Positions 1 to 13,069 of a stretch of DNA of 35,796 nucleotides are shown here, piece by piece (positions within the stretch are counted from its first letter, which is position 1; each line of letters opens with the position of its first letter). The notes beneath the pieces are model-generated. The model searched no databases, had not been told where the DNA came from, and worked only from the letters and a program-made list of their open reading frames with translations. The translations under genes and the position numbers were made by a program. Origin of the DNA: Leuconostocaceae bacterium ESL0958 (GTDB lineage: Bacteria; Bacillota; Bacilli; Lactobacillales; Lactobacillaceae); the NCBI GenBank assembly GCA_029433265.1, contig JAQTHT010000015.1, positions 1 to 35,796 of the forward strand, written 5' to 3'.

Positions 1-89
1 GGCCCATGAAATTACATCACTATCGCACACCATTGGCAGTTTTTGCGGGGCGTTCGAATTAAACTTGTAATCTGCCAAAATAATAAAAT

Positions 90-479
90 TTATTCATCCA
101 TACTTTCGTATGCTTTTTCCATAATTTTAAGTTTATACGATGATTTAAAATGTACAAATAAATACATCAAAGACATTAAAGTAAACAGGATAACTTCAAT
201 CAAAAAAGGCGTCTTATTTGAAATTCTTTTGTTAATTGATATAGCCAGCGATAGCGCAGACATGAACAAAGGAATTGTTACCGACATTATATTTTTTATG
301 GTTAGTACAGTACAAGAAGCTCGTACGATATAAAATTCTAAAAGTTTTTTAGAGTATTTATCTCTAAACGTTTCTATTGATTTTTTGTATTTATCATATT
401 CCTTTCTAGTTCGTTGTATACGTCGCCTCTTTTTAGCTAATTTATATTTTAATATTTTTCTTTGTACCAATTTAAACAC
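90..479 (-). CDS. Small basic coiled-coil protein with two predicted membrane segments
   Basis: This 129-residue protein is not one I recognise. Residues 1-55 are very rich in Lys and Arg and look like a long amphipathic helix or coiled coil. Two hydrophobic stretches, at about 61-83 and 92-111, are probable membrane helices separated by a short basic loop, and a short charged tail follows. The start is GTG, with GGGAG seven bases upstream. The gene begins only 25 bases past the terminator hairpin after res, so it is read either by read-through or from a weak promoter overlapping that hairpin. Base use is AT-rich, like the two HEPN-type genes upstream of mod. The layout of a cytosolic helix followed by two membrane helices resembles small membrane effectors in defence loci, but this is only architectural similarity. 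It could also be an unrelated island passenger. Confidence 0.55.
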   Translation of the reverse strand: MFKLVQRKILKYKLAKKRRRIQRTRKEYDKYKKSIETFRDKYSKKLLEFYIVRASCTVLTIKNIMSVTIPLFMSALSLAISINKRISNKTPFLIEVILFTLMSLMYLFVHFKSSYKLKIMEKAYESMDE

Positions 480-504
480 TATAAAGCTCCCATCACTTAT
501 TTTT

Positions 505-541
505 AAAAAAAAGACTAATCCAAAATTGAATCAGTCTTTTT
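505..541 (-). terminator. Terminator after res
   Basis: On the minus strand a 12-bp stem with two G-T pairs (arms 528-539 and 510-521) and a 6-base loop is followed by eight T. It lies directly after the res stop codon. The plus strand also ends in a short T run, so it may work in both directions. Confidence 0.8.
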
Positions 542-547
542 ACGTAG

Positions 548-3421
548 TTATCTATCCAACCCTTTCAAAATCTCTTGCACTTCTTCTTTCTTCGTTACCT
601 TCGCCCAACGAACATTCAAATTCTTGAAGAAATCCTTTTGAGAAGCAACCGCGATCTTTTCAGAATCACGTAGTCCAACATTGCCAGCTGGCTTTGCTTC
701 AATCAATAGGAATAAGTTGTCCTTTGTAGCATAAACAAAGTCCGGTGTAGTTGTTCCACCCACATAAGTGGGCACTTGAATGGCCCGTCGTGGAAGTTTA
801 CCAAAGACTTTAACGTTTTCACCGGGGTCAAGTTGTGCAATTTTTTGTTCAGGATCTACACTATCCACGTAGGTTTCTTCAAAAAGGTTTCGTTGGTCTT
901 TTTCTGATTCAGCGGGAATATCCCCTAAAGCACCCTGCGCAATGGCATCCACAAAGTGGTCGCCCTTCAAAACAGAAGTCGAAGCTGACATATCCAAGGG
1001 ATCATAGGAATAGCGAGTGGCATAATTTTCCATAAAAATTCTTTGCCAGCTTGATACAACCTTAGACAGTGTTCGTTCATTGATTTTTTTATCAATGTTT
1101 TCAACACCTTCCAAACGCTTTACAAACTGGCTGTGGATAATCTTTGTTGGCAAGTTCGTCTGTTGGTTGATCAAACGGATAAAGCGGTTGTAGGCCAAGC
1201 GTCCAATATCTCCAAGGTTTTCAACCTCTTGGAACTTAGTCGTAAAGGAAAGGGCATCAGGCTGATCACCCTTTGCCATCCGCTGCACATTGACCTCGAC
1301 CGTCTTATTATCATCAAAGATTTCATCGGCTTTAATCGCTTCATAGAAGAGCTGTTCCAGTTGGGCTTCTGGAATCCGATCAAAGACAAGCATGTACCGT
1401 CTTGATAGTTCTTTCCAAAAGTCTTTAATCTGGTTCCAATTCGACTGAACTAGCTTAACTTTATGATCAAAGCGCGGATTACCCTTCCGAACCTTCTTAG
1501 TTACCTGCTTCTTTGGCAAAAGCTCTTGGATAGCTGATCCATCGAGGACGTTCCAGTCATCATCAACAAAGTTTTCATCGGCCAAACGGTTCAAAACGGC
1601 TCGCTTGTGTTCACCATAACCACTTTGTACCAACTTCTCAACGACTTCATCACTGATCTTTTCGTTATCTGGCACTGCCACAGTCGCATCACCATTGATT
1701 TCAGAAAGCAGACGATCTGCAAAGTCCTTTTCAGAAGAATCGACAACAAAGTTCAACCACCATTCTTGCTTATCTAAGCGGTTACCTTCCACGTCAACTG
1801 GCAAACGCAAACCACGTCCGACCTCCTGCAGCTTACTTATTTCTGAACCGGAACTTCTTAACTTAGCAATAGTAAAGACATTAGGATTATCCCATCCTTC
1901 ACGAAGCGTCCACTGAGAAAAGAAGAAACGCAAAATATTCCAGTCCCCATGCTCATCTTTCAAACGCAAGGACTTATTCTTATTACGCAAAATAACATCA
2001 ACTTCTTCTGCGACTTTATCATCTGCCTTCTTACTTTGGGCATCGCTGGCAAAATACCCACCATGGGCGTCGGCCAAATGATTCAAAGTCACTTGCAAAA
2101 ATTCCTTGTAACTTGGATCCGTCTCTTTTTCAATCAACGTTTTCAACTTAGCAGACAAAATTTCTTCAAAAGTATCTTTCAACCATGTATGACCATCACC
2201 CCGATCACGGTAGGAATCGATATTATCAATGAAGAAAAGCGCATTAGTCTTTACTGGGAAACCTTCCCGCAAGAAGTTCTCACGTTCTGACTCGAAGTGA
2301 GCATCCAGGGCCTGCTGTATCAAAATTTTTTGGTAAGAGTCGGTATAGACATCGGCTACCAGTTTCATTCCTTTTTCCACTTCCAAAGAGTTTGAAAGCA
2401 GTCCCTTTTCTTGGTAAGTTAAACCACCTTGGAAGCGTGAATCAACTTCTGCTAGTTGATCCCCTTTCTTCACCTCAAAAAGTCGTCCCTGACGTTCCAG
2501 AACCAGTTTATCCTTTGTCGTATTCTTGACAGTGTAGCTATCGGCCGCATCAGCACCCTTTGGCGTGTAGACGGCCACTCCTTTGACCAAACCCTGGTTA
2601 AAGGAATCTACAGCATCTAAATCGTACTGTGGTTCACCGCGAAAATAATCGGTTAATGTGACTTTATTCTTTCCACGGCCCTCGGTTACTTCTGGGAAGG
2701 TCGCCCCAAAACGAACAATCATCTCTGGCTTGAGCTTCTCTTGAATGTTTGTATAGGAACTCTTATCACGTTTAATCCGATGCGGTTCATCAATAATTAC
2801 AATCGGACGAGTTTTTGCTATCATATCGACGGGGGAAGAATCTCCTCCAAATAAGTTTGCTTCATAATCCTTTTTAAATAAGGAAGAACTGTTTCGATCA
2901 AGAAATCCCTTATCGTTCAACAGCAAAACCTGAATCTGATTCTTATCGTTCAGATCTGCTTCTGCAAATTCTCTAATGGCATTTGGAATCTCTTTGCGCC
3001 CCTTTTTACCAAAATCACCGGCATTGACTAAACCAACATTGATTTCAGTCTTGGGGAAAAACTTTCTAAAATGTTGCTTAGCATATTCCGCCGTTAGGAA
3101 AGAGCGCGCCCCTTCTTTGATTGCAGCACTTGGAACAACCACAATAAACTTAAACATACCCATCTTCTGATGCAGCTCGTACATCATTCGGGTATAGGTG
3201 TAAGTTTTACCCGTTCCCGTTTCCATTTTGACATCAATAAAGTTAGATTCGTTAAAGGCTCCCTTAATCAAGGGATTAGCATAAGGTGAATCAGCGTTCA
3301 AACCATTCTTATCAATCTGCTTACCAAAATCACGACCTGGAAACTTGTCCATGATCGCATGAATCGCTGCTTGTTGGTGTGGTAACTCAACAAGGTTAAT
3401 TGATAATTGTTTCTCTACCAT
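548..3421 (-). CDS. res: Type III restriction enzyme, Res subunit (helicase-nuclease)
   Basis: This 957-residue protein is the motor and nuclease subunit of a type III restriction-modification system. With Mod it hydrolyses ATP and cuts DNA carrying unmethylated, oppositely oriented recognition sites. Visible motifs in order are the Walker A box METGTGKT (66-73), the DEPH box VIIDEPH (208-214), which is typical of type III and related SF2 helicases, and the motif VI-like QEVGRGLRLP in the second helicase domain. A C-terminal PD-ExK nuclease site follows, PD at 893-894 and EAK at 908-910. The length is usual for Res and all key residues are present, so the gene looks intact. Its ATG shares one base with the mod stop (TAATG), which implies translational coupling. 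Confidence 0.95.
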   Translation of the reverse strand: MVEKQLSINLVELPHQQAAIHAIMDKFPGRDFGKQIDKNGLNADSPYANPLIKGAFNESNFIDVKMETGTGKTYTYTRMMYELHQKMGMFKFIVVVPSAAIKEGARSFLTAEYAKQHFRKFFPKTEINVGLVNAGDFGKKGRKEIPNAIREFAEADLNDKNQIQVLLLNDKGFLDRNSSSLFKKDYEANLFGGDSSPVDMIAKTRPIVIIDEPHRIKRDKSSYTNIQEKLKPEMIVRFGATFPEVTEGRGKNKVTLTDYFRGEPQYDLDAVDSFNQGLVKGVAVYTPKGADAADSYTVKNTTKDKLVLERQGRLFEVKKGDQLAEVDSRFQGGLTYQEKGLLSNSLEVEKGMKLVADVYTDSYQKILIQQALDAHFESERENFLREGFPVKTNALFFIDNIDSYRDRGDGHTWLKDTFEEILSAKLKTLIEKETDPSYKEFLQVTLNHLADAHGGYFASDAQSKKADDKVAEEVDVILRNKNKSLRLKDEHGDWNILRFFFSQWTLREGWDNPNVFTIAKLRSSGSEISKLQEVGRGLRLPVDVEGNRLDKQEWWLNFVVDSSEKDFADRLLSEINGDATVAVPDNEKISDEVVEKLVQSGYGEHKRAVLNRLADENFVDDDWNVLDGSAIQELLPKKQVTKKVRKGNPRFDHKVKLVQSNWNQIKDFWKELSRRYMLVFDRIPEAQLEQLFYEAIKADEIFDDNKTVEVNVQRMAKGDQPDALSFTTKFQEVENLGDIGRLAYNRFIRLINQQTNLPTKIIHSQFVKRLEGVENIDKKINERTLSKVVSSWQRIFMENYATRYSYDPLDMSASTSVLKGDHFVDAIAQGALGDIPAESEKDQRNLFEETYVDSVDPEQKIAQLDPGENVKVFGKLPRRAIQVPTYVGGTTTPDFVYATKDNLFLLIEAKPAGNVGLRDSEKIAVASQKDFFKNLNVRWAKVTKKEEVQEILKGLDR

Positions 3422-5274
3422 TAGTTTCGTACCTCTACCTGAATATCAAAGTCCTTATCCTTCAAGATTTTAATATTAGTCTTCAACTCCATCATAGCTT
3501 CAAAGGTCAACGCATACTCACTAACAATAATTGTGTTCAAGTTAAAGCTATGTTTACCTAACTCGTTCAATAACTGCTTTGTCGCTTCTGAATCCCAAGT
3601 GTTTTCAAAAATATAAAGTACAGATCCAGCAACATAGTAACCTGTACCATGGCTGAATCTCTTCTTCTCAACCGGCTCATCAAACTTATAACCATCAGCC
3701 GTCATCCAAGTAGTCAAAAGCGTATCAACGCCCCCCGGAATATCGGTAACCATGTCATCAGTCAAAACCACATCGGAATCAAACTTTTCTAACTTATCCA
3801 ATGTATCTGCCTGAACATTTTCGACCGTGTAGTGCTTATAACCTGAAGTATCCCCAATATTTTCGGCAGCCTTCTCAATACGAACGCGAGAAATTTCATC
3901 AATTGTTTTGAAACCAGCTTTAGCAGCCGCAGAATCAGTAGCCAATCCTTCCGGCAATTGAACCATGATATATTGACGTTCTCCACCATCTTTTTTGTTC
4001 AACTGAATTACAGCATCAGCAGTAGTTGCGGATCCGGCGAAGAAGTCCATAACTAGGGAATCTTTCTCTGTTGCAGTAGCTAATAATTTTTTTAGTAAAA
4101 TAATAGGTTTTGGATAAGAAAATACAGCACTGTCCTCTCCAAGTGTCTTTTCTAAATCAGTTCGTCCAACTGTAGTTCCACCGTAGTTAAGTATGCTTAA
4201 CAAATAAGTAGTTCTTCGTTCATCCAATGGAATGATCAAACGAGGTTGTTTATGCCCATCTGAACCCCAAAAGATCAGATCCTCAGCAATAAGTTCATCA
4301 ATTTTTTCTTTTGACCACTTCCACTGTTTAGTAAACACATCTCCTGAAGGATTAGTAATAGAGTAATAATTCTCATGATCAGTTCGTGCATTTTTTTCAT
4401 TGATAGCCAAATTTGCAGTCTGAAACTCATTTTCTCGACCCGCTACGGCTTCATGTATCTTTTTAAATTGTTTCTTTTTACCATTTTTATAGGCAACCTG
4501 GACGTATTCATGCACATTTCTGACATGCTTAACTTGCTTAAGATCTCCAGATTTACCTTCTGCATTTTTATTCCAAATTAGCGTTTCTGAATTTTCTTCA
4601 CCGAAGAGATCGTCCAGCATCAACTTCAAATTAGCTTGTTCGTTGTCGTCAATAGAAACGAAGATAACGCCATCATCTTTTAAAAGCTTACGAGCCAATA
4701 CTAAACGAGGATACATAAAAGTAAGCCAAGCCGAATGTGACTTTTTACCTTGCTGATCATAGCGTTCTTTAAATTCTGTGACTTCCTTTTTGTCGTTAGG
4801 ATCTACGCCAAATTCTACCAACATATCATCAGTGACTTGGAATGAATCAGGATAGACAAATCCATCTGATCCTGTATTATAGGGTGGATCAATATAAATA
4901 AAGTCAACCGAATTTGCGTAATTCTGGCGTAAATGGCGGAGAACTTCCAAATTATCACCAGTAAAGAACAAATTTTTACTCTTTTGGTTAATATCTTTGC
5001 CATTATGATAATCATCTGAAATAATTACAGAAGTAGGCCGCTCACCTACTTGACGTTTAGCATAATCTTTTCCGATGAAATCAAGCCTATATCCACTTGT
5101 CAATTCGGTTGGATTAGCTTTTCGAAGTTCTGCTTCAAATTTTTTTATATCGAAACCACTATCGTTAAAGAACCGCGGCAGCTTCTCCCTGAGTTCTTCT
5201 AAAAAGCTAGTATCTGCTTCAACATGTTTGTTGAACTTTTTGTTATCTTTTAAACCTTTTTCTAAATTTGTCAT
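3421..5274 (-). CDS. mod: Type III restriction-modification methyltransferase, Mod subunit
   Basis: This 617-residue protein is the DNA adenine-N6 methyltransferase and specificity subunit of the type III system. DPPYNTG (129-135) is the catalytic motif IV and FAGSA (412-416) is the AdoMet-binding motif I. The order of catalytic motif before AdoMet motif marks the beta class, as in other type III Mod proteins. The stretch between them, about 225-380, holds the target recognition domain. That part looks more AT-rich than the flanking gene, consistent with exchange of recognition domains, although I did not compute this. I see no simple-sequence tract that would make the gene phase-variable. 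Res follows with a one-base overlap. The start is ATG with only a weak GGGG upstream. Confidence 0.95.
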   Translation of the reverse strand: MTNLEKGLKDNKKFNKHVEADTSFLEELREKLPRFFNDSGFDIKKFEAELRKANPTELTSGYRLDFIGKDYAKRQVGERPTSVIISDDYHNGKDINQKSKNLFFTGDNLEVLRHLRQNYANSVDFIYIDPPYNTGSDGFVYPDSFQVTDDMLVEFGVDPNDKKEVTEFKERYDQQGKKSHSAWLTFMYPRLVLARKLLKDDGVIFVSIDDNEQANLKLMLDDLFGEENSETLIWNKNAEGKSGDLKQVKHVRNVHEYVQVAYKNGKKKQFKKIHEAVAGRENEFQTANLAINEKNARTDHENYYSITNPSGDVFTKQWKWSKEKIDELIAEDLIFWGSDGHKQPRLIIPLDERRTTYLLSILNYGGTTVGRTDLEKTLGEDSAVFSYPKPIILLKKLLATATEKDSLVMDFFAGSATTADAVIQLNKKDGGERQYIMVQLPEGLATDSAAAKAGFKTIDEISRVRIEKAAENIGDTSGYKHYTVENVQADTLDKLEKFDSDVVLTDDMVTDIPGGVDTLLTTWMTADGYKFDEPVEKKRFSHGTGYYVAGSVLYIFENTWDSEATKQLLNELGKHSFNLNTIIVSEYALTFEAMMELKTNIKILKDKDFDIQVEVRN

Positions 5275-5451
5275 AACGTATACCCCATTTTTACTATGTC
5301 TTCATTGAGTGTAACTGAACACATTCTATCCGGATTACTGTGCAAGTTAAATAATATGTTCTTCAGTTCATTCAATCTTACTTCCTACCGGTACCAAGAA
5401 AAGTATCTATTACGATTAGTAATTCGCTTCCATCTCTCAAAACATTTTATT
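5275..5451 (-). other. Gap between the unknown HEPN-like gene and mod
   Basis: These 177 AT-rich bases separate the 425-residue gene from mod. I see no convincing promoter: a TAGAAT at about 5324-5329 has no acceptable -35 box. I also see no intrinsic terminator. A short perfect inverted repeat (ATTAC, 5-base loop, GTAAT) lies at 5409-5423. The mod genes may therefore be co-transcribed with the two upstream genes. Confidence 0.4.
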
Positions 5452-6729
5452 CTATTTTTTTAATACTGTCTGATACTTGCGATTATAGTAAAACATTGCT
5501 ACTACATATTGAAAATATATACTACGATTAGTCTCACTATCGCCATTCTCGTCAATAAAGTGAATGTCCAATTCTGGTTCCTTCTTACAGAGTCCGTCTA
5601 ATTGTTGTAGTGCAAAGACACTGTTAGCATTGATACCATTGAAGCGGTTACTTTCCTCTGTACTCGAAAGTAAAACATCAACATCTCTATTTTCGTTGGG
5701 CTTCAAATAAAGATTTATTTTTTCTTGGGAATAATTCGTTGAAAATTGAGCTTTTCTGGCTAAAATTGTTAAATTTGGTTTTAGTAATGCACGTACTTTG
5801 TTAATCGAATTATCCTTATCATTCAAAACTGTGGATACGCTAAACTCCATTTGTTGAAGTTGTTTTTTATATAGCAAAATACAATTTTTTATATACGTTA
5901 CTAAGTCACTTCTATGCCATCGTTTAGCAAATTCCAGTAATTCGTATAAATCGCCTAACGGCCATGAATCCTCACAGATTAGTGAAGGATAACGTTTTAA
6001 TGTTTCGTTACATAGTAATGCAAGATCATGTTGATTAAATTCGGTTGATAATTCAATATGACATTGTTTATATTCATTTTCTTTTTCAGCAATTTTCCTG
6101 AGTAAATAATCATTTACTGGACCCATCTTATCTTCAATAATTCTCGCAATTTCAAAAACTTCTTCATCAAGGTTTATTGGTTGATTCCGAGAACATTTAA
6201 TAGATAACTCTTCACCTTGATAACAAATTTCTTTCAATAAAAAATCTGCTCCATTATACTTATCTCTATTAAAAAGTGAACTATAATTATCATTTAAATC
6301 GACAATATCCTCTAACCAAACCGTTCCATCAAATCCATATTTTTCATGACGATTAGTATTTAAGGGATGCGCAATTGATAAACTTCGAAACGCTAAAAAC
6401 CGATTAATTACATCTTGAGTACCATCTTTTTTACTCTGTTCTTTTACCTCATTCGAGATGTTCAATAATTTTGTTAAGCAAATAAAAGTATCTAACAATG
6501 TATCCACTTTAACCATCAACTTATAAAAAGAATCAATACTAAGGCTTTTTGATACATATTTCTGATGTAGAGTATCTACATCTTGACTTGCAAGTTCTAA
6601 ATAAATATTAGCTGCTTGAATATGACTAATTAATTCTCTATCATTATCTGGGAATAGTTCCATATATCGATACAATATTTCACGAAAACGTTGTAAATTA
6701 GAATACTCCATTGTATATGTCTCTGTCAC
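5452..6729 (-). CDS. Unrecognised protein with a HEPN-type R-x5-H motif
   Basis: I do not recognise this 425-residue protein. It is rich in predicted helix and has no membrane segment or signal peptide. FRSLSIAHP places Arg115 and His121 in the R-x(4-6)-H spacing of HEPN ribonucleases, preceded by a helix at about 63-112 that could be the other half of a HEPN fold. A cluster, TNRHEKYGFDG (125-135), follows. The C-terminal half (about 200-425) matches no domain I know. The start is GTG, chosen because AAGGA lies at a good distance; an ATG six codons later is possible. It begins 39 bases after the ApeA-like gene, so both are probably on one transcript. The sequence is strongly AT-rich, as expected for an acquired gene. 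RNase activity is inferred from the motif alone. Confidence 0.6.
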   Translation of the reverse strand: MTETYTMEYSNLQRFREILYRYMELFPDNDRELISHIQAANIYLELASQDVDTLHQKYVSKSLSIDSFYKLMVKVDTLLDTFICLTKLLNISNEVKEQSKKDGTQDVINRFLAFRSLSIAHPLNTNRHEKYGFDGTVWLEDIVDLNDNYSSLFNRDKYNGADFLLKEICYQGEELSIKCSRNQPINLDEEVFEIARIIEDKMGPVNDYLLRKIAEKENEYKQCHIELSTEFNQHDLALLCNETLKRYPSLICEDSWPLGDLYELLEFAKRWHRSDLVTYIKNCILLYKKQLQQMEFSVSTVLNDKDNSINKVRALLKPNLTILARKAQFSTNYSQEKINLYLKPNENRDVDVLLSSTEESNRFNGINANSVFALQQLDGLCKKEPELDIHFIDENGDSETNRSIYFQYVVAMFYYNRKYQTVLKK

Positions 6730-6768
6730 GAATAATCCTTTCTACTCAATTTTTTTCGATCGTATCCT

Positions 6769-8028
6769 TTATAAAGCTGTCAATTTATTTATTAAAACTT
6801 TTTGAAGAATATTTTTAAATTTTAACAAATCTGGAACTAAGTCGATTTCATTATCATAAGCTCCCTTTTCATTACCGTGAATAATGAAATCTCTTCTTTC
6901 TTTAATACGCTGATAAAATGACAAATTATCTTCAAAAGGTTTATCCAAAATCTTGTTTAAAAATTGTAACTTTTTAACTGCGTCTTGAACTTGCTTGCCA
7001 TTTTCAAATTTTTCTGCTTTAAAAAAACTTTCAACAGCTGATACCAGTGTTATTAACTGCGGTTCGACTGGTATATTAAATCTTTCAGTCATCAAAATAG
7101 TATCAGCAAATCTTTGAAATTCTATGTCTAATAGGTATTTTTCAAAAATATGCTGCATATTATCCTTAAGAAAATCGTAATTAATTGGGTAATCAAATTT
7201 TTCAGAAAAATTATTATGAAAAACTACCGGTTGACTTACAAACCAATTTTCTGCATCTTCGGCATTTTTTACGTCCCCTTTTTCATCTGTCAGCATATTA
7301 TTCAACAATATTTTTTGAATTCCTATTTTTTCTCCCATTGCTATCTGGAAAAAATTTCGTATTTTTGTTGATAAATCAAAAATAAAATCACGCGTTTGAT
7401 TTTCTTTAAAAACCAATCTCACAATGAGTGATACAGTTTTATTAAGACTATACCTCTCAGTTTTGTTATGCCATTTGGCAACAATGTTCAAACTAAATTC
7501 ATTTTCCTTATAAAATAAATTATTAAAAGTAATATCTGATATATCCTTTGGATCTTGTCCAACTGTGAATGTTTTAAACCAATATTTTAAATTTCCTATA
7601 TCGACTTCTGCTACATTAAATTCGTTACTTTCAGGTAATTTTTTCTGAATTGAAAAATCAAAAATATCCCACGATGAAGTTTGACCACCAAATTGACTAT
7701 TACTAGCAAAGAAGCTACCCGCTATATTCAGGTAATTTCGAATTACAAAATTTAATTTACCATCCCAAGACCTTGCATACCAAGTTCCGCCTTGTTCATG
7801 ACTTTTTACTTTTTGGACTTCTCCATTTTCTAAATTAGTTTTGTTATCATTTGGATAAATATTTAGTTCAAGAATATTGCTCCCATTCTTTCGAGTTAAA
7901 ACACCTGCAGCACTTCTTTGACTACTAACACCGTATATTCCACGAAATTCAGTTAAAGTATCAGTAACCATCACAGGAAGAGTAAAATCATCAAGCATGC
8001 TTATTTCACTAAAATTTTTATTTAGCAT
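6769..8028 (-). CDS. ApeA-like protein: beta-rich N-terminal domain plus C-terminal HEPN RNase domain
   Basis: This 419-residue protein resembles the ApeA anti-phage family, in which a beta-rich N-terminal sensor-like domain precedes a HEPN domain thought to cut RNA and arrest infected cells. Residues about 1-220 are beta-rich, with spaced Gly and aromatic residues as in ApeA N-terminal domains. The last 110 residues are helical and contain RRDFIIHG, giving the HEPN motif Arg379-x4-His384. The reading frame is open ten codons further, to a GTG at 8058. I chose the ATG at 8028 because AAAAGGAGT sits five bases before it and the -10 box lies just upstream of the GTG. It is the first gene of the island and is followed 39 bases later by the second HEPN-like gene. 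Family assignment is from remembered pattern, not a profile search. Confidence 0.65.
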   Translation of the reverse strand: MLNKNFSEISMLDDFTLPVMVTDTLTEFRGIYGVSSQRSAAGVLTRKNGSNILELNIYPNDNKTNLENGEVQKVKSHEQGGTWYARSWDGKLNFVIRNYLNIAGSFFASNSQFGGQTSSWDIFDFSIQKKLPESNEFNVAEVDIGNLKYWFKTFTVGQDPKDISDITFNNLFYKENEFSLNIVAKWHNKTERYSLNKTVSLIVRLVFKENQTRDFIFDLSTKIRNFFQIAMGEKIGIQKILLNNMLTDEKGDVKNAEDAENWFVSQPVVFHNNFSEKFDYPINYDFLKDNMQHIFEKYLLDIEFQRFADTILMTERFNIPVEPQLITLVSAVESFFKAEKFENGKQVQDAVKKLQFLNKILDKPFEDNLSFYQRIKERRDFIIHGNEKGAYDNEIDLVPDLLKFKNILQKVLINKLTAL

Positions 8029-8063
8029 AATACTCCTTTTTATGACGTTAAAATCCACGTAAT

Positions 8064-8099
8064 TGCACTTATTATAACAATTGAAATTCGAAAGCGTTA
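8064..8099 (-). promoter_or_regulatory. Extended -10 promoter of the ApeA-like gene with repeated operator-like motif
   Basis: TGTTATAAT (-10 hexamer 8071-8076) forms an extended -10 box. No good -35 box lies 17 bases upstream. The 10-mer GCTTTCGAAT occurs at 8086-8095, inside the spacer, and again at 8132-8141, which suggests a regulator-binding site. Start of transcription should be near 8064, giving a leader of about 36 bases before the ATG. Confidence 0.6.
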
Positions 8100-8427
8100 A
8101 CTAATTAGACTTTTTTATCGAATACTTTCATATTCGAAAGCTAATTAAATATTTACCAACCAAAATTTTACTAAAATATTGATTTATTTTCCCTACAATT
8201 AACTAAAATCAATGGCATCCACGAATCTTGACGAACATAGTCCCTAGCTATCAACCAAAATATGTAAAAAGTTCATTTACTGAAAAAAATCAATTGTAGA
8301 TATTGTTTGTTATTTCATTTTTCCTCCTTATCCGATATAGATCTACTTGCTCAAGATTTGTACGACACCATTAACAAGAAAAACTCAAAGCTAATTACTT
8401 ACTAGCGATGTTAATTATTCACAAAAA
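8100..8427. other. AT-rich intergenic region between fic and the defence island
   Basis: About 330 bases hold no convincing gene. On the minus strand a strong ribosome-binding site (AAGGAGG near 8325-8331) precedes ATG AAA TAA, a two-codon frame. This could be the remains of a lost gene or a regulatory mini-ORF. A second 10-base GCTTTCGAAT copy is at 8132-8141. The region marks the edge between the Fic gene and the AT-rich island. I see no tRNA, integrase or clear attachment repeats. Confidence 0.45.
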
Positions 8428-8449
8428 AAGAAGAACCCGCCGATTCTTC
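8423..8449 (-). terminator. Terminator after fic
   Basis: An 8-bp stem (arms 8442-8449 and 8430-8437, one T-G pair) with a 4-base GGCG loop is followed by seven T on the minus strand. It begins ten bases after the fic stop codon. Confidence 0.8.
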
Positions 8450-8458
8450 CTTTTATCT

Positions 8459-9757
8459 TTATAATCTAAGTGACTGACCTAGCCCATAACGAATTGGCCT
8501 AGCCTTTTTCATTTGGATAAAGCCCTCTGCTTCAAGCAACTTTCGCAATTGCTTGCTGTGGCTTTCCGGAACACCTAAGTACTCCTTTAACCCGGAGACA
8601 ATCTTGTTTAATTCAACGCCCTCTTTGGGTTCCCCCTCAAAGAGCTCGGACTGCAGGAGCACGTACAAAAAATTAAAGACAGCTTTTTGGTCAATTTCTT
8701 TCAGCCGATGCTTTTGATAGAAAGCCTTCAGCTCTTCTTCTAGAAGTTCTCGGCCGCTATCTAAGCGCTGTAAGCGTTCGCTAAGTTCCTGCAGGACTTT
8801 TTCCTGACCGTCCAAAATGATGGCTAGCAGCCCCTCTATGAACATCGTCATATCCGCGTAATTCATAACATCACTAGCTTCTTTGAAAAGCTGGTAGTAC
8901 TGCGAACGCGACTGATCAATGGCAGAAGAAATAGAGAGACCGGTGAACTTGTCATACTTGTCCGAGAGATAAGCAGACAGTAAGTAACGGCCCATCCGGC
9001 CGTTGCCATCGATAAAGGGATGCGTATTTTCAAAAAGAAAATGGCTGACCAAGGCCTTAATGACCGGTAGTGTTTCATGGCCATTCATGAAGGCAATCAA
9101 TGGTAACAATTGTTCACTGATTGCTTCTTCAGTGCTTGGCGGTAAGTGCCGTACCTGTGTGGAGGAGCCAATGTAGACTTTACTATTACGGAAAAGTCGG
9201 CCGTCTGGTAAATTCTTTTCTGGGATTTCATGCTCGAGCACTTGATCGTAAATTTTACGAAAATCCTTCAAGTGCTGGATCTTCGGTGCCCGCCCCTGCA
9301 TGGCATCATGATAGAGATTCATCGTAGAAATCAAACGCTTCTTTTTTACAGGGCGTCCATTTCTGGTCAGGACTTCTCCTGCAATGGTATTCAATTCCTC
9401 ACGGTTGGTTTTAACACCCTCAATCTCGTTTGAATGGTAGATTTCCTCCACCAAAGTCTTTTTCACGTAAGACTCTTCAGCAATACCAGGTAGCCTACCA
9501 GCAATTCGCCGAATGCTTTTAGAATTCTCTTGAACGGCATTGGCTAAAGCAATCATACGCTGTGTGAAAACGTAAAAAAGCGGATACTGATTCGTCTGAT
9601 CATAGGAATCCTTGTAGTTATCTAAGAGCGGGTAAAGTTGTGTTTGTTGCGTCGACCAGGAATTCAAACGATTTTGATATTCCGCTTGAATGGCCAACCT
9701 GGATAAGGATGGTCCATTTCCGTTATATTTTGCTTTTAACAATGATTGATAGTCCAT
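8459..9757 (-). CDS. fic: Fic family protein, class II autoinhibited AMP-transferase
   Basis: Fic proteins usually transfer AMP from ATP to a hydroxyl side chain of a target protein. This 432-residue protein has the full catalytic motif HPFIDGNGRMGR (246-257), including the catalytic His and the phosphate-binding GNG. SNEIEG (109-114) fits the inhibitory motif (S/T)xxxE(G/N), placed before the Fic core as in class II proteins, so activity should be held back by Glu113. The last 100 residues look like a winged helix, a common Fic tail that may bind DNA or a partner. The ATG has AGGAGG at an ideal distance. The gene has its own terminator and a candidate promoter, and no separate antitoxin gene lies beside it. 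Its target is unknown. It borders the defence island but need not belong to it. Confidence 0.9.
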   Translation of the reverse strand: MDYQSLLKAKYNGNGPSLSRLAIQAEYQNRLNSWSTQQTQLYPLLDNYKDSYDQTNQYPLFYVFTQRMIALANAVQENSKSIRRIAGRLPGIAEESYVKKTLVEEIYHSNEIEGVKTNREELNTIAGEVLTRNGRPVKKKRLISTMNLYHDAMQGRAPKIQHLKDFRKIYDQVLEHEIPEKNLPDGRLFRNSKVYIGSSTQVRHLPPSTEEAISEQLLPLIAFMNGHETLPVIKALVSHFLFENTHPFIDGNGRMGRYLLSAYLSDKYDKFTGLSISSAIDQSRSQYYQLFKEASDVMNYADMTMFIEGLLAIILDGQEKVLQELSERLQRLDSGRELLEEELKAFYQKHRLKEIDQKAVFNFLYVLLQSELFEGEPKEGVELNKIVSGLKEYLGVPESHSKQLRKLLEAEGFIQMKKARPIRYGLGQSLRL

Positions 9758-9770
9758 GTCGGCCTCCTTG

Positions 9771-9877
9771 ATTGAAATTCAGCGCTTTTTTCAATAAACA
9801 AAGTGATCAATGACTTATTTATGTAAATAATAGCATTTTTTCAATAAATATTCGCTGTCGAATGCTCTTGATTGAAA
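9771..9877 (-). promoter_or_regulatory. fic promoter region with four ATTGAAA/TTTCAAT half-sites
   Basis: TTGAAA (9839-9844) and TAAATA (9816-9821), spaced by 17 bases, form a candidate promoter. The heptamer ATTGAAA or its complement occurs four times (9771-9777, 9789-9795, 9839-9845, 9871-9877). The first pair is an inverted repeat with 11 bases between the arms; the second pair has 25. One half-site overlaps the -35 box. A separate ATTCG/CGAAT inverted repeat is at 9850-9863. Autoregulation by the Fic winged-helix tail is possible but not shown. Confidence 0.45.
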
Positions 9878-9922
9878 ATTCTTTTGATAAAGCCGCCTGC
9901 TAGCCATAATTCTCCACCCAAC

Positions 9923-9952
9923 AAAAAAGCAGTCCCAACGGGACTGCTTTTT
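9923..9952 (-). terminator. Terminator of the rplM-rpsI operon
   Basis: A GC-rich stem (AGCAGTCCC-type arms) with a very short loop is flanked by A and T runs, 18 bases after the rpsI stop. On the minus strand it ends in six T. The flanking A run makes it symmetric, so it can also stop transcription from the other side. Confidence 0.9.
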
Positions 9953-9970
9953 GAAAACGATAACAATAGA

Positions 9971-10366
9971 TTAACGCTTTGAGAACTGTGAAGCCTTACG
10001 AGCCTTCTTCAGACCTGGCTTCTTACGTTCCTTCATACGAGCGTCACGAGTCAAAAGACCAGCTTGCTTCAATGCGGAACGGAAGTCTGGGTCAACCGTA
10101 AGCAAAGCGCGGGCGATACCCTGACGCGTTGCTCCAGCTTGACCTGAGAAACCACCGCCGTTAACGTTAACGAGCACGTCGTAGTTACCCAAAGTTTCCG
10201 TAGCGTTGAATGGTTGCAAAACAACTTCACGCAAGTTAGGGAAAGGAATGTAATCTTCGATTGCCTTACCGTTCATCGTGATGGCACCGTTACCAGGGAC
10301 CAAACGGACCCGAGCAACTGAGTTCTTACGGCGACCAGTGCCGGCATATTGTACTGCTGCAGTCAT
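9971..10366 (-). CDS. rpsI: 30S ribosomal protein S9
   Basis: This is S9 (uS9), 131 residues, the usual length. The C-terminal tail is strongly basic and ends in SKR; in other bacteria this tail reaches into the ribosomal P site and touches the tRNA anticodon stem-loop. The N-terminal [19 protein letters not shown] is the family signature. The gene follows rplM by 20 bases and shares its promoter and leader. A strong terminator follows. Confidence 0.98.
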
Positions 10367-10386
10367 AGTTTAACTTCTCCTTTCCT

Positions 10387-10830
10387 TTAGACTAACTTGT
10401 TGATGTCAAGCATTTCAGGCTTTTGTGCTGCGTGCTTGTGATCAGCACCGGCATAAACGTGCAAGTTCAAGCCTTGTACGTGACCCAAGTGCGTCTTTGG
10501 CAACATACCCTTAATGGACAATTCCAACAACTTTTCAGGATCGTATTGACGGTAGTTACCAGCCGTACGTTCCTTCAAACCACCTGGGTGGTTTGAGTGG
10601 TGGTAATAGATCTTGTCGGTTGCCTTCTTACCAGAAAGTGCAACTTCACCAGCGTTGATGATGATCACGTGGTCACCCATGTCAACGTTTGGCGTGAAGG
10701 TTGGCTTGTTCTTACCACGCAAGATGGAAGCAGCCACCGTTGAAAGGCGTCCCAAAGTGACGTCCTTTGCATCGATGATATACCACTTCTTTTCAACTTC
10801 GCCTGGCTTTGCTAAAAATGTTGTACGCAT
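10387..10830 (-). CDS. rplM: 50S ribosomal protein L13
   Basis: L13 (uL13), 147 residues, is an early-binding protein of the large subunit. The text [20 protein letters not shown] and the central [13 protein letters not shown] stretch are characteristic. It is the first gene of the rplM-rpsI operon, which here has its own sigma-A type promoter and a structured 5' leader, so it can be controlled separately from the truA and ecf genes upstream. Confidence 0.98.
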
Positions 10831-10927
10831 AGTGCGCTCCTTTGATTGTTTTGTTTACGGTTTGGTCGTTCCTTACCAAACATTTTACAATAAGTTTCCG
10901 GGGCTTATCGTGAGGTAAACAATACCG
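10831..10927 (-). ncRNA. L13-type mRNA leader upstream of rplM
   Basis: The leader of about 97 bases holds a 7-bp hairpin (arms 10860-10866 and 10875-10881), a second hairpin with ATAAG/CTTAT arms near 10890-10908, and an outer pairing between GTAAAC (10915-10920) and GTTTAC (10853-10858). The outer stem encloses both hairpins and closes shortly before the ribosome-binding site. The position and the GTAAACAAAAC segment fit the L13 leader family of Firmicutes, in which L13 is thought to repress its own operon. Family membership is from memory; a covariance-model search would settle it. Confidence 0.7.
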
Positions 10928-10933
10928 TTTATT

Positions 10934-10962
10934 ATTTTATAAAATTCAGCGCCCGCTGTCAA
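10934..10962 (-). promoter_or_regulatory. Promoter of rplM-rpsI
   Basis: A consensus TTGACA (10957-10962) and TAAAAT (10934-10939) are separated by exactly 17 bases. This is one of the best sigma-A type promoters in the window. It lies about 105 bases before the rplM start, leaving room for the structured leader. Confidence 0.88.
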
Positions 10963-11014
10963 TGGATTCCCCACGATTGGCGCAATTTAAACAAATTTTA
11001 ACTGTCAAATCTGC

Positions 11015-11422
11015 CTAGTCAAAAGTCAGGTCTTGGCTGCTTTGATAATCGGCTAGCCGCACGCTCGACAAATGCAGTTCCAAGAGCACTTCTTCTTCTG
11101 GATGGGGGTGATTTTTAAAGAACACGGGATAGTGGAAATAATCTTTCACATCGGCCCAGGTCTTATTGGAGCGAACGAGCTTAGCCTGGTTGGACTCAAT
11201 CCGCATCCCCTGCTCGTTCAAGGGGGTCATAATGGCGACCTGACTGTTCACGGCCAGGTCATCCAGTTTGGCCGTTCCTGGCTGGGTCACTAGGTACCAG
11301 ACGTTCGGCTGCTGTTCATCCACCCCGAAGCCCATAATCCGTAAGGAGGGTTGCTCTTCCTTGGCCGTGGCCACAAAAATCAATCCACCAGCCGCTGCTA
11401 GATAAGCTTGTAAGTTTTCCAT
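11015..11422 (-). CDS. Pyridoxamine 5'-phosphate oxidase-like FMN-binding split-barrel protein
   Basis: This 135-residue protein has the pattern of the small split-barrel flavin-binding family related to pyridoxamine phosphate oxidase. It shows a short N-terminal helix, the strands GGLIFVATA and RIMGFGVDE, WYLVTQPGTAKLDDLAVNSQVAIM, and a C-terminal strand VLLELHLSSVRL. Members bind FMN or related cofactors, and most have no assigned substrate. It is too short and too divergent to call a true PdxH. The start ATG has AGGAGG upstream. It sits between truA and rplM, a place where many relatives have no gene, and no terminator separates it from truA, so it probably rides on the ecf-truA transcript. 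Confidence 0.75.
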   Translation of the reverse strand: MENLQAYLAAAGGLIFVATAKEEQPSLRIMGFGVDEQQPNVWYLVTQPGTAKLDDLAVNSQVAIMTPLNEQGMRIESNQAKLVRSNKTWADVKDYFHYPVFFKNHPHPEEEVLLELHLSSVRLADYQSSQDLTFD

Positions 11423-11463
11423 ATTGTCCTCCTTCGCTGTGTGACTACTGCGTCAAAACGCCG

Positions 11464-12249
11464 TCACGCTTTTGCATCATCTTGATAAAAAATTTCTTCC
11501 AAATACAGACCGGCCGCTGGCGCCGTGTAACGGGCCTGTTCACGGTCCCGGGCGGCAATCAGCGTCGGAATGGCATCAACGGGCCGCCGGCCCGTCCCGA
11601 TTTCTAAGAGGACGCCCACCATAATCCGGATTTGATTGTAGAGGAAGGCATTGCCTTCAAAGGTGAAGACCAGCTCTTGCTCGGCTTCCTTGACGGCTAG
11701 TTCGGCCTTGGTGATGGTCCGCACGGTCGTGGCGGTTTGATTCCCTGCTGCCGCAAAGGTCGCAAAGTCCTGTTCCCCGATTAAATCGGGTAAGGCCTGC
11801 TGAATCCGTTCAGGGTCCAAGTGCCAATGGAAATGGCCCGTATAGCGTTTCTTAAAGGGATCGACATAGTCGGTCGTCGACACCCGATAGACATAGCGCT
11901 TTGAGTGCGCGGAAAAACGGGCATGAAAGTCTGGCGCCACTTGTTCAACCGACCGAATCAGAATATCCCGAGGCAGAATCGTATTTAAGCCCTTACGAAC
12001 GCCTTCGCCAGGGATGTCAAAAGGCAGGTCAAAATGAACCACCTGTCCTTTGGCATGGACGCCTGTGTCCGTCCGGGAGGACCCAACCACCTTAATGGGT
12101 TCCGCAGGGAACTTCCCCATCTGATTGACCGCCTTAATCAACTCTCCCTGGACCGTCCGCTGCCTTTCGACGCCGTTTTTACTTTGTACTTGAAAACCAA
12201 AAAAGTCAGCCCCATCGTAGGCTAACACTGCGCGATAACGGTACATCAT
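11464..12249 (-). CDS. truA: tRNA pseudouridine(38-40) synthase TruA
   Basis: TruA converts uridines 38-40 in the anticodon arm of many tRNAs to pseudouridine. The protein is 261 residues, the family norm. RTDTGVHA (59-66) carries the catalytic Asp61. The frame is open 19 codons further upstream into the end of ecfT, but GGGAG lies five bases before the ATG at 12249 and the family consensus begins here (MYRYRAVLAYDGADFFGFQ). It follows ecfT by 16 bases, the usual arrangement in Firmicutes. Confidence 0.97.
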   Translation of the reverse strand: MMYRYRAVLAYDGADFFGFQVQSKNGVERQRTVQGELIKAVNQMGKFPAEPIKVVGSSRTDTGVHAKGQVVHFDLPFDIPGEGVRKGLNTILPRDILIRSVEQVAPDFHARFSAHSKRYVYRVSTTDYVDPFKKRYTGHFHWHLDPERIQQALPDLIGEQDFATFAAAGNQTATTVRTITKAELAVKEAEQELVFTFEGNAFLYNQIRIMVGVLLEIGTGRRPVDAIPTLIAARDREQARYTAPAAGLYLEEIFYQDDAKA

Positions 12250-12265
12250 GCTCACTCCCTGACTG

Positions 12266-13069
12266 TTATAACTGATAAAACCATAGGAAACCAAAGCCGA
12301 GCACAAAGAGCCCGGTCAAGGCTGCAACGGTCCCATCCAAAGAACCAAAGGCTAATTGTCGGTAGCGGGTCCGCTGGTCGGCGCTTTGAAAGCCCCGGAC
12401 CTCCATGGCATTGGCCAAGTCCAAGGCCCGCTGCAAAGCCCCCACAAAGAGTGGCACCAGGAGTGGGACCACTGCTTTGGACCGGGCAATCAAGGAACCG
12501 GACGACAGGGACATGCCCCGTGATTTCTGCGCCTTCATGATTTTCTCAGTCTCGTTTACCAGCAAAGGTACAAAACGGAGGGCAATCGACAACATTAAGG
12601 ACAGTTCGGCCACCGGCACCTTGATTTTCTTGAGCGGCCGGAGCAGCGCTTCCAACGCCCCCGCAATTTGGGTCGGCGCCGTGGTTAGCGTTAAGGTCGT
12701 CGACATCAGCACAATCATCGTGAAGCGCAAGACGACCTCAAAGGCATTCACTAGCCCGGGTCCGGTAACCTTCAAAAAAGACCACTGCCAGAGCACTGGC
12801 TGACCGCCGGTAAAGAAGACCTGCAAGAAAACCGTAAAGAGAATTAACCAAAAAACGGGCTTGAGCCCTTTCCAATAAAGACTGGCCTTCTGCCCACTGG
12901 CATAAAGCACAGCCGCCAAAAAAATTCCCGACCAGACATAGGTCCAGGGGTGGTTGGCAAAGACGAGCAGAAAAACATAGGCCAGCGTGACCAAAATCTT
13001 TGTGCGGGGGTCCAGCCGGTAGAGCGGGCCGTGGCCTGGCACAAATTGACCAATCACTAATCCATTCAT
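12266..13069 (-). CDS. ecfT: Energy-coupling factor transporter transmembrane protein EcfT
   Basis: EcfT is the membrane scaffold of the group II ECF transporter module. It couples the two ATPases to interchangeable substrate-binding S proteins for vitamins and trace nutrients. The 267 residues hold several hydrophobic segments (for example about 27-60, 70-92, 107-130 and a last one at 245-265). The coupling-helix signatures here read KAQKSRGMS (around 183) and NAMEVRGFQ (around 219), the two X-R-G motifs expected. The start overlaps the ecfA2 stop (ATGA). Confidence 0.96.

Follow-up and report, generated by a model that had tools for sequence, protein, structure and literature searches.

A candidate two-gene ApeA-P2 defence beside a type III restriction-modification system downstream of rpsI in Leuconostocaceae bacterium ESL0958

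Gene content and composition of the locus

The window analysed here is the entire contig C6 of Leuconostocaceae bacterium ESL0958 (35,796 nt), and all position numbers refer to this whole stretch. Five open reading frames (ORFs), all on the minus strand, encode in order of transcription an ApeA-like protein, a second protein designated P2, the type III restriction-modification (R-M) proteins Mod and Res, and a small protein with two predicted membrane helices (TM protein). A first-pass annotation had treated them as one five-gene unit joining two HEPN-type proteins to a type III R-M pair. They seem to be several anti-phage modules placed one after another rather than one system, with ApeA and P2 as a putative two-gene defence and Mod-Res as a neighbour that can be exchanged.

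The layout is exactly as first described: ApeA and P2 are separated by 39 bp (6730-6768) and P2 and mod by 177 bp (5275-5451), mod and res overlap by 1 bp (3421), and a gap of 68 bp (480-547) lies between res and the TM gene. The first two genes are also more AT-rich than the ribosomal genes, as had been noted, with GC fractions of 0.287 (ApeA) and 0.302 (P2) against 0.510 for rpsI and 0.468 for rplM; further reference values are 0.531 for truA and 0.481 for the window past 12 kb. Composition divides the island itself, as Mod (0.370) and Res (0.421) differ from the ApeA-P2 pair, while the TM gene has the lowest value (0.267). The coordinates of all features are collected in Table 1.

Table 1. 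Features of the window and of one comparison locus (L095, genome G660, own numbering), with the evidence for each
Feature	Position	Strand	Evidence
Repeat end, transposon-like by eye	1..77	.	Matches elsewhere in own genome
TM protein, 129 aa, two hydrophobic stretches	90..479	-	Hydropathy
Terminator-like hairpin after res, 15-bp stem, 3' arm ending in U run	508..541	-	RNA fold 495-560
Res, type III restriction helicase-endonuclease	548..3421	-	Pfam ResIII 8e-21, RE_endonuc 1e-11
Mod, type III DNA methyltransferase	3421..5274	-	N6_N4_Mtase 2e-37, T3RM_EcoP15I_C 5e-21, PADLOC MTase_III 3e-165
P2, 425 aa, no family match, proposed ApeA partner	5452..6729	-	Conservation, 48% homologue beside ApeA in G662
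ApeA-like protein, 419 aa from ATG 8028 (ORF open to GTG 8058)	6769..8028	-	Pfam ApeA_NTD1, alignment
Promoter-like site upstream of apeA, TTAACG-18-TATAAT, TG before second hexamer	8071..8100	-	Consensus scan 10/12
Terminator-like hairpin after fic, upstream of apeA	8425..8454	-	RNA fold 8405-8460
Fic-domain protein between rpsI and apeA	8459..9757	-	Pfam Fic 4e-12, PADLOC SoFic 4e-32
L095: 522-aa protein without match	1916-3481	+	
L095: HEPN_AbiU2	3504-4163	+	
L095: HsdR, type I	5251-8379	+	

The ApeA-like protein

The assignment of the first gene to ApeA stands. Its product matches Pfam ApeA_NTD1 (PF18862; E value 3e-8) with 33.9 bits against a cut-off of 25.5, and its sole PADLOC match is PDC-S58 (E value 8e-6). 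The HEPN_Apea domain reaches merely an E value of 0.16, under the cut-off, so that at E ≤ 0.1 the window protein itself has neither a HEPN_Apea nor a PADLOC Cas13-ApeA match. The alignment sets the protein against five relatives whose genes are uninterrupted, all from other genomes of the family, and at the same threshold four of these five match HEPN_Apea (best E value 6.5e-8) and all five match Cas13-ApeA. ApeA_NTD1 is matched by three of the six aligned proteins, which align throughout, and the C-terminal R379-x4-H384 (numbered from ATG 8028), in the form R...HG, is invariant in all six. The protein combines an N-terminal domain above cut-off with an R-x4-H motif common to the relatives that match HEPN_Apea. 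Both RNase activity and protection against phage are putative for this protein.

The GTG at 8058 had originally been taken as the start codon. The ATG at 8028 is the likely start, since it is preceded by AAGGAG and the DNA similarity to a sister species begins at 8030. No match of ApeA or of an ApeA relative was found in plasmid records, ApeA had no confirmed match in viral contigs, and the relative had none in phage records. The best structure match of ApeA (E value 0.005) covers a short stretch of an integrase; it was considered weak and was not credited.

P2, the second gene of the pair

P2 has no match in Pfam (including the HEPN families), NCBIfam or PADLOC, PHROGs gave weak matches alone (E value 0.05 or worse), and no relation to ApeA was found by profile comparison. 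The alignment available for this protein comprises five sequences but four lineages, one pair being 98% identical; 45 of 425 positions are invariant in it. The residues R115, S116, A120, H121 and T125 fall within the densest invariant stretch (7 of 15 positions), and H121 is the sole invariant His of the protein, so that an R115-x5-H121 motif is conserved in every sequence. The first-pass annotation had named P2 as a second R-x5-H protein of HEPN type. The motif is present and invariant, but an R-x4-6-H pattern is present in 68% of 5000 shuffled P2 sequences and by itself is weak evidence; for that reason the invariant motif is only suggestive of a HEPN-type active site, and the name HEPN is a guess at the level of the motif. 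AlphaFold produced no usable model, neither for the whole protein (pLDDT, the predicted local distance difference test score, of 34) nor for the first 144 residues from the ATG (pLDDT 48). The best match to a solved structure (E value 0.088) was weak and was likewise not credited.

The distribution of P2 is sparse. It was found in three of 295 genomes of the order (that of ESL0958, G096 and G229), in one of 398 of the class (ESL0958 alone), and in four of 369 of the family, two marginal ones being dropped. The dropped matches, in G866 and G939, have E values of 7.5e-4 and 9.6e-4; the first is, by eye, a fragment within an ORF of 630 residues for membrane transport and was put down to chance, and the second was taken as chance by score alone. 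Among plasmids a single record, from Enterococcus hirae, carries the gene, a scan of genome contigs returned one locus, on the same contig as G096:C28, and P2 had no confirmed match in viral contigs and none in phage records. There are accordingly five distinct P2 loci: those of ESL0958, of the sister species G662, of G096 (the same contig as the E. ratti locus L035), of the E. hirae plasmid and of G229. Their close neighbours are ApeA at two loci, a DUF2971 gene at two and an Mrr-type gene at one. In both Enterococcus loci the DUF2971 gene follows P2 after 66 bp, and in G229 P2 lies 48 bp after the Mrr-type gene, in a gene row that also encodes an Eco57I-type methylase and a T5orf172-ResIII protein.

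The P2-DUF2971 genes of the E. hirae plasmid (L034, 9977-12328) and of E. ratti (L035, 4549-6900) are both adjoined by recombinase genes, annotated in the former and recognised by eye in the latter, and from this arrangement they look like a mobile two-gene cassette. A literature search for DUF2971 in phage defence returned nothing useful.

Conservation of ApeA-P2 in a sister species and at other ApeA loci

Among 13 genomes of the genus, ApeA is present in two, those of ESL0958 and G662, and P2 in the same two. In G662, an ApeA homologue (58%) is followed by the P2 homologue in the same order and on the same strand, downstream of rpsI, and the likely start of P2, preceded by AGGAGG, falls 17 nt within the end of apeA. 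When positions 1-12400 of the window were compared with the DNA of G662, similarity was confined to ApeA (6808-8030), P2 (5803-6529) and core genes. No mod-res occurs at the rpsI site of G662, and type I hsdR and hsdM genes lie 2.5 kb beyond P2 instead (hsdS was recognised by eye). There, too, the pair is the more AT-rich, with GC fractions of 0.32-0.36 against 0.41-0.44 for hsdRM. A constant tie to one R-M system is not seen in these two species, as the pair stands with a type III system in one species and with a type I system in the other.

ApeA loci number nine in total, eight from 301 genomes of the family and one from G068, and two of these genes (G662 and G068) contain a stop codon. Besides the R-M genes of ESL0958 and G662, the neighbours include a type I HsdR in G847, McrBC and a T5orf172 protein in G679, a GIY-YIG-SLFN helicase and MrcB_N in G825, and SIR2 with HerA in G833.

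Mod-Res and its co-occurrence with ApeA and P2

The mod and res genes form an ordinary type III pair, as first annotated, with an EcoP15I-type C-terminal domain on Mod and helicase and endonuclease domains on Res, which also matches PADLOC REase_III (E value 3e-244) and, above cut-off, NCBIfam NF012027 (E value 4e-298). In likeness to type III systems of the EcoP15I kind, both proteins match and their genes overlap, and nothing unusual was seen.

A co-occurrence check, set beforehand, spoke against the five-gene unit. Res was matched in 24 of the 295 genomes of the order, including that of ESL0958, and eight of the others are strong matches (E < 1e-150); in the same draw, none of the 23 other Res-positive genomes has ApeA or P2, and no second genome combines ApeA, P2 and Res. 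In stretches of about 20 kb round eight close Mod-Res relatives (L042-L049), tblastn (E ≤ 1e-4) detected Mod and Res, whereas ApeA, P2 and TM gave no match. Conversely, the stretches fetched round the ApeA loci of the family sample contain no Res, a genome-wide Res search not having been made there. With mod-res also missing from the G662 site, the five-gene system cannot be upheld.

Transcription signals and the TM gene

Downstream of res lies a strong hairpin that ends in a T run (fold 495-560: -16.5 kcal/mol, z -3.8, 0 of 200 shuffles as good), and another follows fic, upstream of apeA (fold 8405-8460: -13.9 kcal/mol, z -3.0, 1 of 200 shuffles as good). No hairpin better than shuffles was found in the P2-mod gap (z -0.2 and -0.8 in two overlapping pieces) or in the ApeA-P2 gap (z +1.1). 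Because hairpins flank the four genes and none was found in the inner gaps, ApeA-P2-mod-res may share one transcript. The promoter-like site upstream of apeA is weak evidence, given that the consensus scan listed 36 such sites against 31.1 expected; ahead of mod the same scan gave just a weak site (5350-5323).

The TM protein was correctly described as having two hydrophobic stretches, as confirmed by hydropathy. Its library matches are far under the curated cut-offs (best E value 2.5e-5), and at E ≤ 1e-4 it has no relatives other than itself among the fetched loci. The hairpin that separates it from res and this lack of relatives led us to reject it as a fifth member, and the TM gene probably lies outside the unit.

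The rpsI site across the genus

The site downstream of rpsI was compared in 13 genomes of the genus, the ORFs to be scanned being chosen by eye. It holds Fic, ApeA-P2 and type III R-M in ESL0958, ApeA-P2 and type I R-M in G662, AbiH and type I in G661, Fic and type I in G664, AbiU2 (also a HEPN protein) and type I in G660, and Fic and type IIG in G657. In G659 it holds Cas9 (its neighbours point, by eye, to subtype II-A) and a GIY-YIG-SLFN helicase, in G658 GmrSD, in G655 AbiLi/AbiLii at a distance of about 11 kb, and in G656 Fic only; by eye, no defence genes were seen at the site in G663, G654 and G665. Recognised defence genes are therefore present in nine of the 13 genomes, or in ten when a lone Fic is counted, and on this basis the site downstream of rplM-rpsI looks like a defence hotspot. 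At the site of the 11 genomes other than ESL0958 and G662, ApeA, P2, Mod and Res gave no match (tblastn, E ≤ 1; just 4.3 kb in G656), Fic relatives were found in four, and a TM match was at chance level (E value 0.47). At E ≤ 1e-3, Mod, Res and TM are missing from the rpsI site of all 12 other genomes, Mod and Res not having been searched genome-wide in the genus. A literature search for a defence hotspot at rpsI in the Lactobacillaceae returned nothing useful.

Relation to known systems

The earlier statement that no named system has this gene order is not contradicted, although the association of ApeA with R-M operons has been in print since 2013. In the available portion of that paper (PMC3710099), HEPN is linked to many R-M systems, with at least 16 clades, and ApeA is described as embedded in R-M operons of epsilonproteobacteria and proposed to act as PrrC does; both the association of ApeA with R-M and the idea of HEPN as a back-up to R-M were already published there. 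ApeA is also counted among the HEPN defence systems in the accessible text of PMC10952713.

Known ApeA proteins are defined by ApeA_NTD1 and HEPN_Apea in Pfam and by Cas13-ApeA in PADLOC. The window protein resembles them in its N-terminal domain, its C-terminal R-x4-H and the R-M genes nearby, an arrangement that the available portion of PMC3710099 gives for epsilonproteobacteria, and differs in its divergence under the HEPN_Apea and PADLOC models. It is also followed by P2, which that portion of the paper does not mention. PrrC, which stands behind the type Ic system PrrI, is similar in that a HEPN RNase gene lies near R-M genes, according to the same part of that source. In contrast to PrrC, no ABC ATPase domain was matched here, and the R-M type differs between the two species, which makes a tie to one R-M complex unlikely. 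As far as the accessible descriptions go, HEPN-MNT toxin-antitoxin pairs and the HEPN/winged-helix pair of type IX retrons likewise combine a HEPN gene with a partner gene; P2 differs from these partners in matching neither a nucleotidyltransferase nor a winged-helix family of Pfam, nor any other. That P2 or ApeA generally acts as an antitoxin was rejected, because each is found without the other close by.

Proposed function and alternatives

With a probability of about 60%, we propose that the site downstream of rplM-rpsI is a defence hotspot loaded with independent modules, namely fic, ApeA-P2 and type III R-M, in which ApeA-P2 is a conserved two-gene RNase defence and mod-res an exchangeable neighbour. 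Gene content, the adjacency in two species, the differing R-M genes beside the pair and the hairpins are observed, and each of the functional steps that follow is inferred. Mod would shield the host DNA, and Mod-Res would cut incoming DNA that lacks Mod methylation. Should the infection continue, ApeA would sense it via its N-terminal domain, and a HEPN dimer of ApeA would cleave RNA, which would stop the phage and probably the cell too. The trigger of ApeA may be short DNA breakdown products; deoxydinucleotides reportedly activate ApeA, to judge from the title of a 2026 preprint. A diffusible signal of this kind would account both for the variety of DNA-cutting systems next to ApeA and for the fact that the R-M genes can be swapped. 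The part of P2 may be that of an accessory HEPN-like protein, which either controls ApeA or contributes a second RNase site.

The new element at this locus is P2, by virtue of a family without match in the libraries searched, an invariant R-x5-H and varying neighbours. We tentatively suggest, as an idea that has the odds against it, that P2 represents a new HEPN-like family serving as a portable partner of the ApeA RNase, of a DUF2971 protein or of an Mrr nuclease, and that ApeA and P2 form a new defence of two genes, with an RNase step that P2 supplies or controls and that is triggered by the DNA breakdown products of the adjoining restriction system. If ApeA does respond to such products, a shared signal and not protein contacts would explain why it is found next to unrelated DNA-cutting systems, which, if true, would amount to a testable general rule for the assembly of defence islands. 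The candidate active site makes the function of P2 directly testable as well.

Several observations weigh against the proposal of independent modules. The ApeA-P2 pair is known from two species only, and in one of these, G662, apeA has one in-frame TAG, for which reason that ApeA may be non-working. Between P2 and hsdR of G662 lie four ORFs, of which two are on the opposite strand, so that the pair is "beside" R-M genes only loosely, and by eye the ApeA loci of G849, G009 and G068 are without visible R-M. Neither hairpin was among the terminators of the consensus scan, and the terminator-like sites that it did list were fewer than chance (2 against 6.2 in shuffles). The hotspot reading, moreover, is drawn from the rpsI site alone. 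Finally, ApeA-P2-mod-res is bracketed by the two hairpins with none between, and a link to Mod-Res is for this reason kept open.

That last arrangement, with all four genes on one strand, fits a coupled defence, in which Mod-Res keeps the HEPN proteins inactive, or is needed by them, and a phage that overcomes restriction would set them off, in the manner of PrrC behind the type Ic system PrrI; the general model of HEPN with R-M is moreover published (PMC3710099). The first-pass annotation had suggested a similar tie of the HEPN pair to Mod-Res, and of this the adjacency of ApeA and P2 in two species, the nearness of R-M genes in both and the possible co-transcription stand, while the constancy of Mod-Res does not. 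The type I genes in place of mod-res in G662, the lack of ApeA and P2 in the other Res-positive genomes and round the eight Mod-Res loci, and the difference in composition between the two pairs make such coupling improbable, and we consider it the least likely of the alternatives. Chance stacking, with ApeA acting alone and P2 an unrelated cargo gene, would account for the fact that seven of the nine ApeA loci show no P2 within the fetched 12-20 kb, and that three of the five distinct P2 loci show no ApeA within the fetched 14-21 kb, figures which also count against a conserved pair. It is nevertheless unlikely, in view of the same order, strand and tight spacing or overlap in two species that otherwise share core genes only at this locus. 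Somewhat less doubtful is the view that P2 has no RNase function and serves different effectors as a regulator or adaptor, which fits the three kinds of neighbour (ApeA, DUF2971 and Mrr) at five distinct loci and the short gaps to the last two; what argues against it is that the R-x5-H, invariant in the best-conserved part of P2, resembles a HEPN active site.

Additional observations

Both ends of the island deserve mention. Fic genes recur at the rpsI site of sister species, with relatives of the window gene in G657 and G664. At the opposite end, parts of the first ~77 bases of the window match five other places in the genome of ESL0958, two of them nearly full-length: C25:1-77 at 100%, at the end of contig C25, and C10:704-781 at 94%, close to a transposase-like ORF (by eye). 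The repeat at base 1 is probably a transposon end; it cuts the island there, and the far end of the island may lie beyond the window. On contig C25 (L102, 12-359), an ORF whose beginning resembles, by eye, an Abi_2 (AbiD/AbiF) protein continues into this repeat, and is possibly a defence gene cut by a transposon.

GIY-YIG-SLFN group 3 helicases were seen beside ApeA in G825 (L066, 7484-9310) and beside cas genes in G659 (L091, 1265-3010). At the rpsI site of G660 (L095), the 522-residue protein, without match in Pfam or PADLOC, is followed by HEPN_AbiU2 near the type I HsdR, and this is another pair of a HEPN gene and an unknown gene by an R-M system. Near rpsI in several species (L087, L090, L091, L093 and L094), proteins of about 300-530 residues share, by eye, motifs resembling EWRDAFKxxNGREPSLxEFKxAK.

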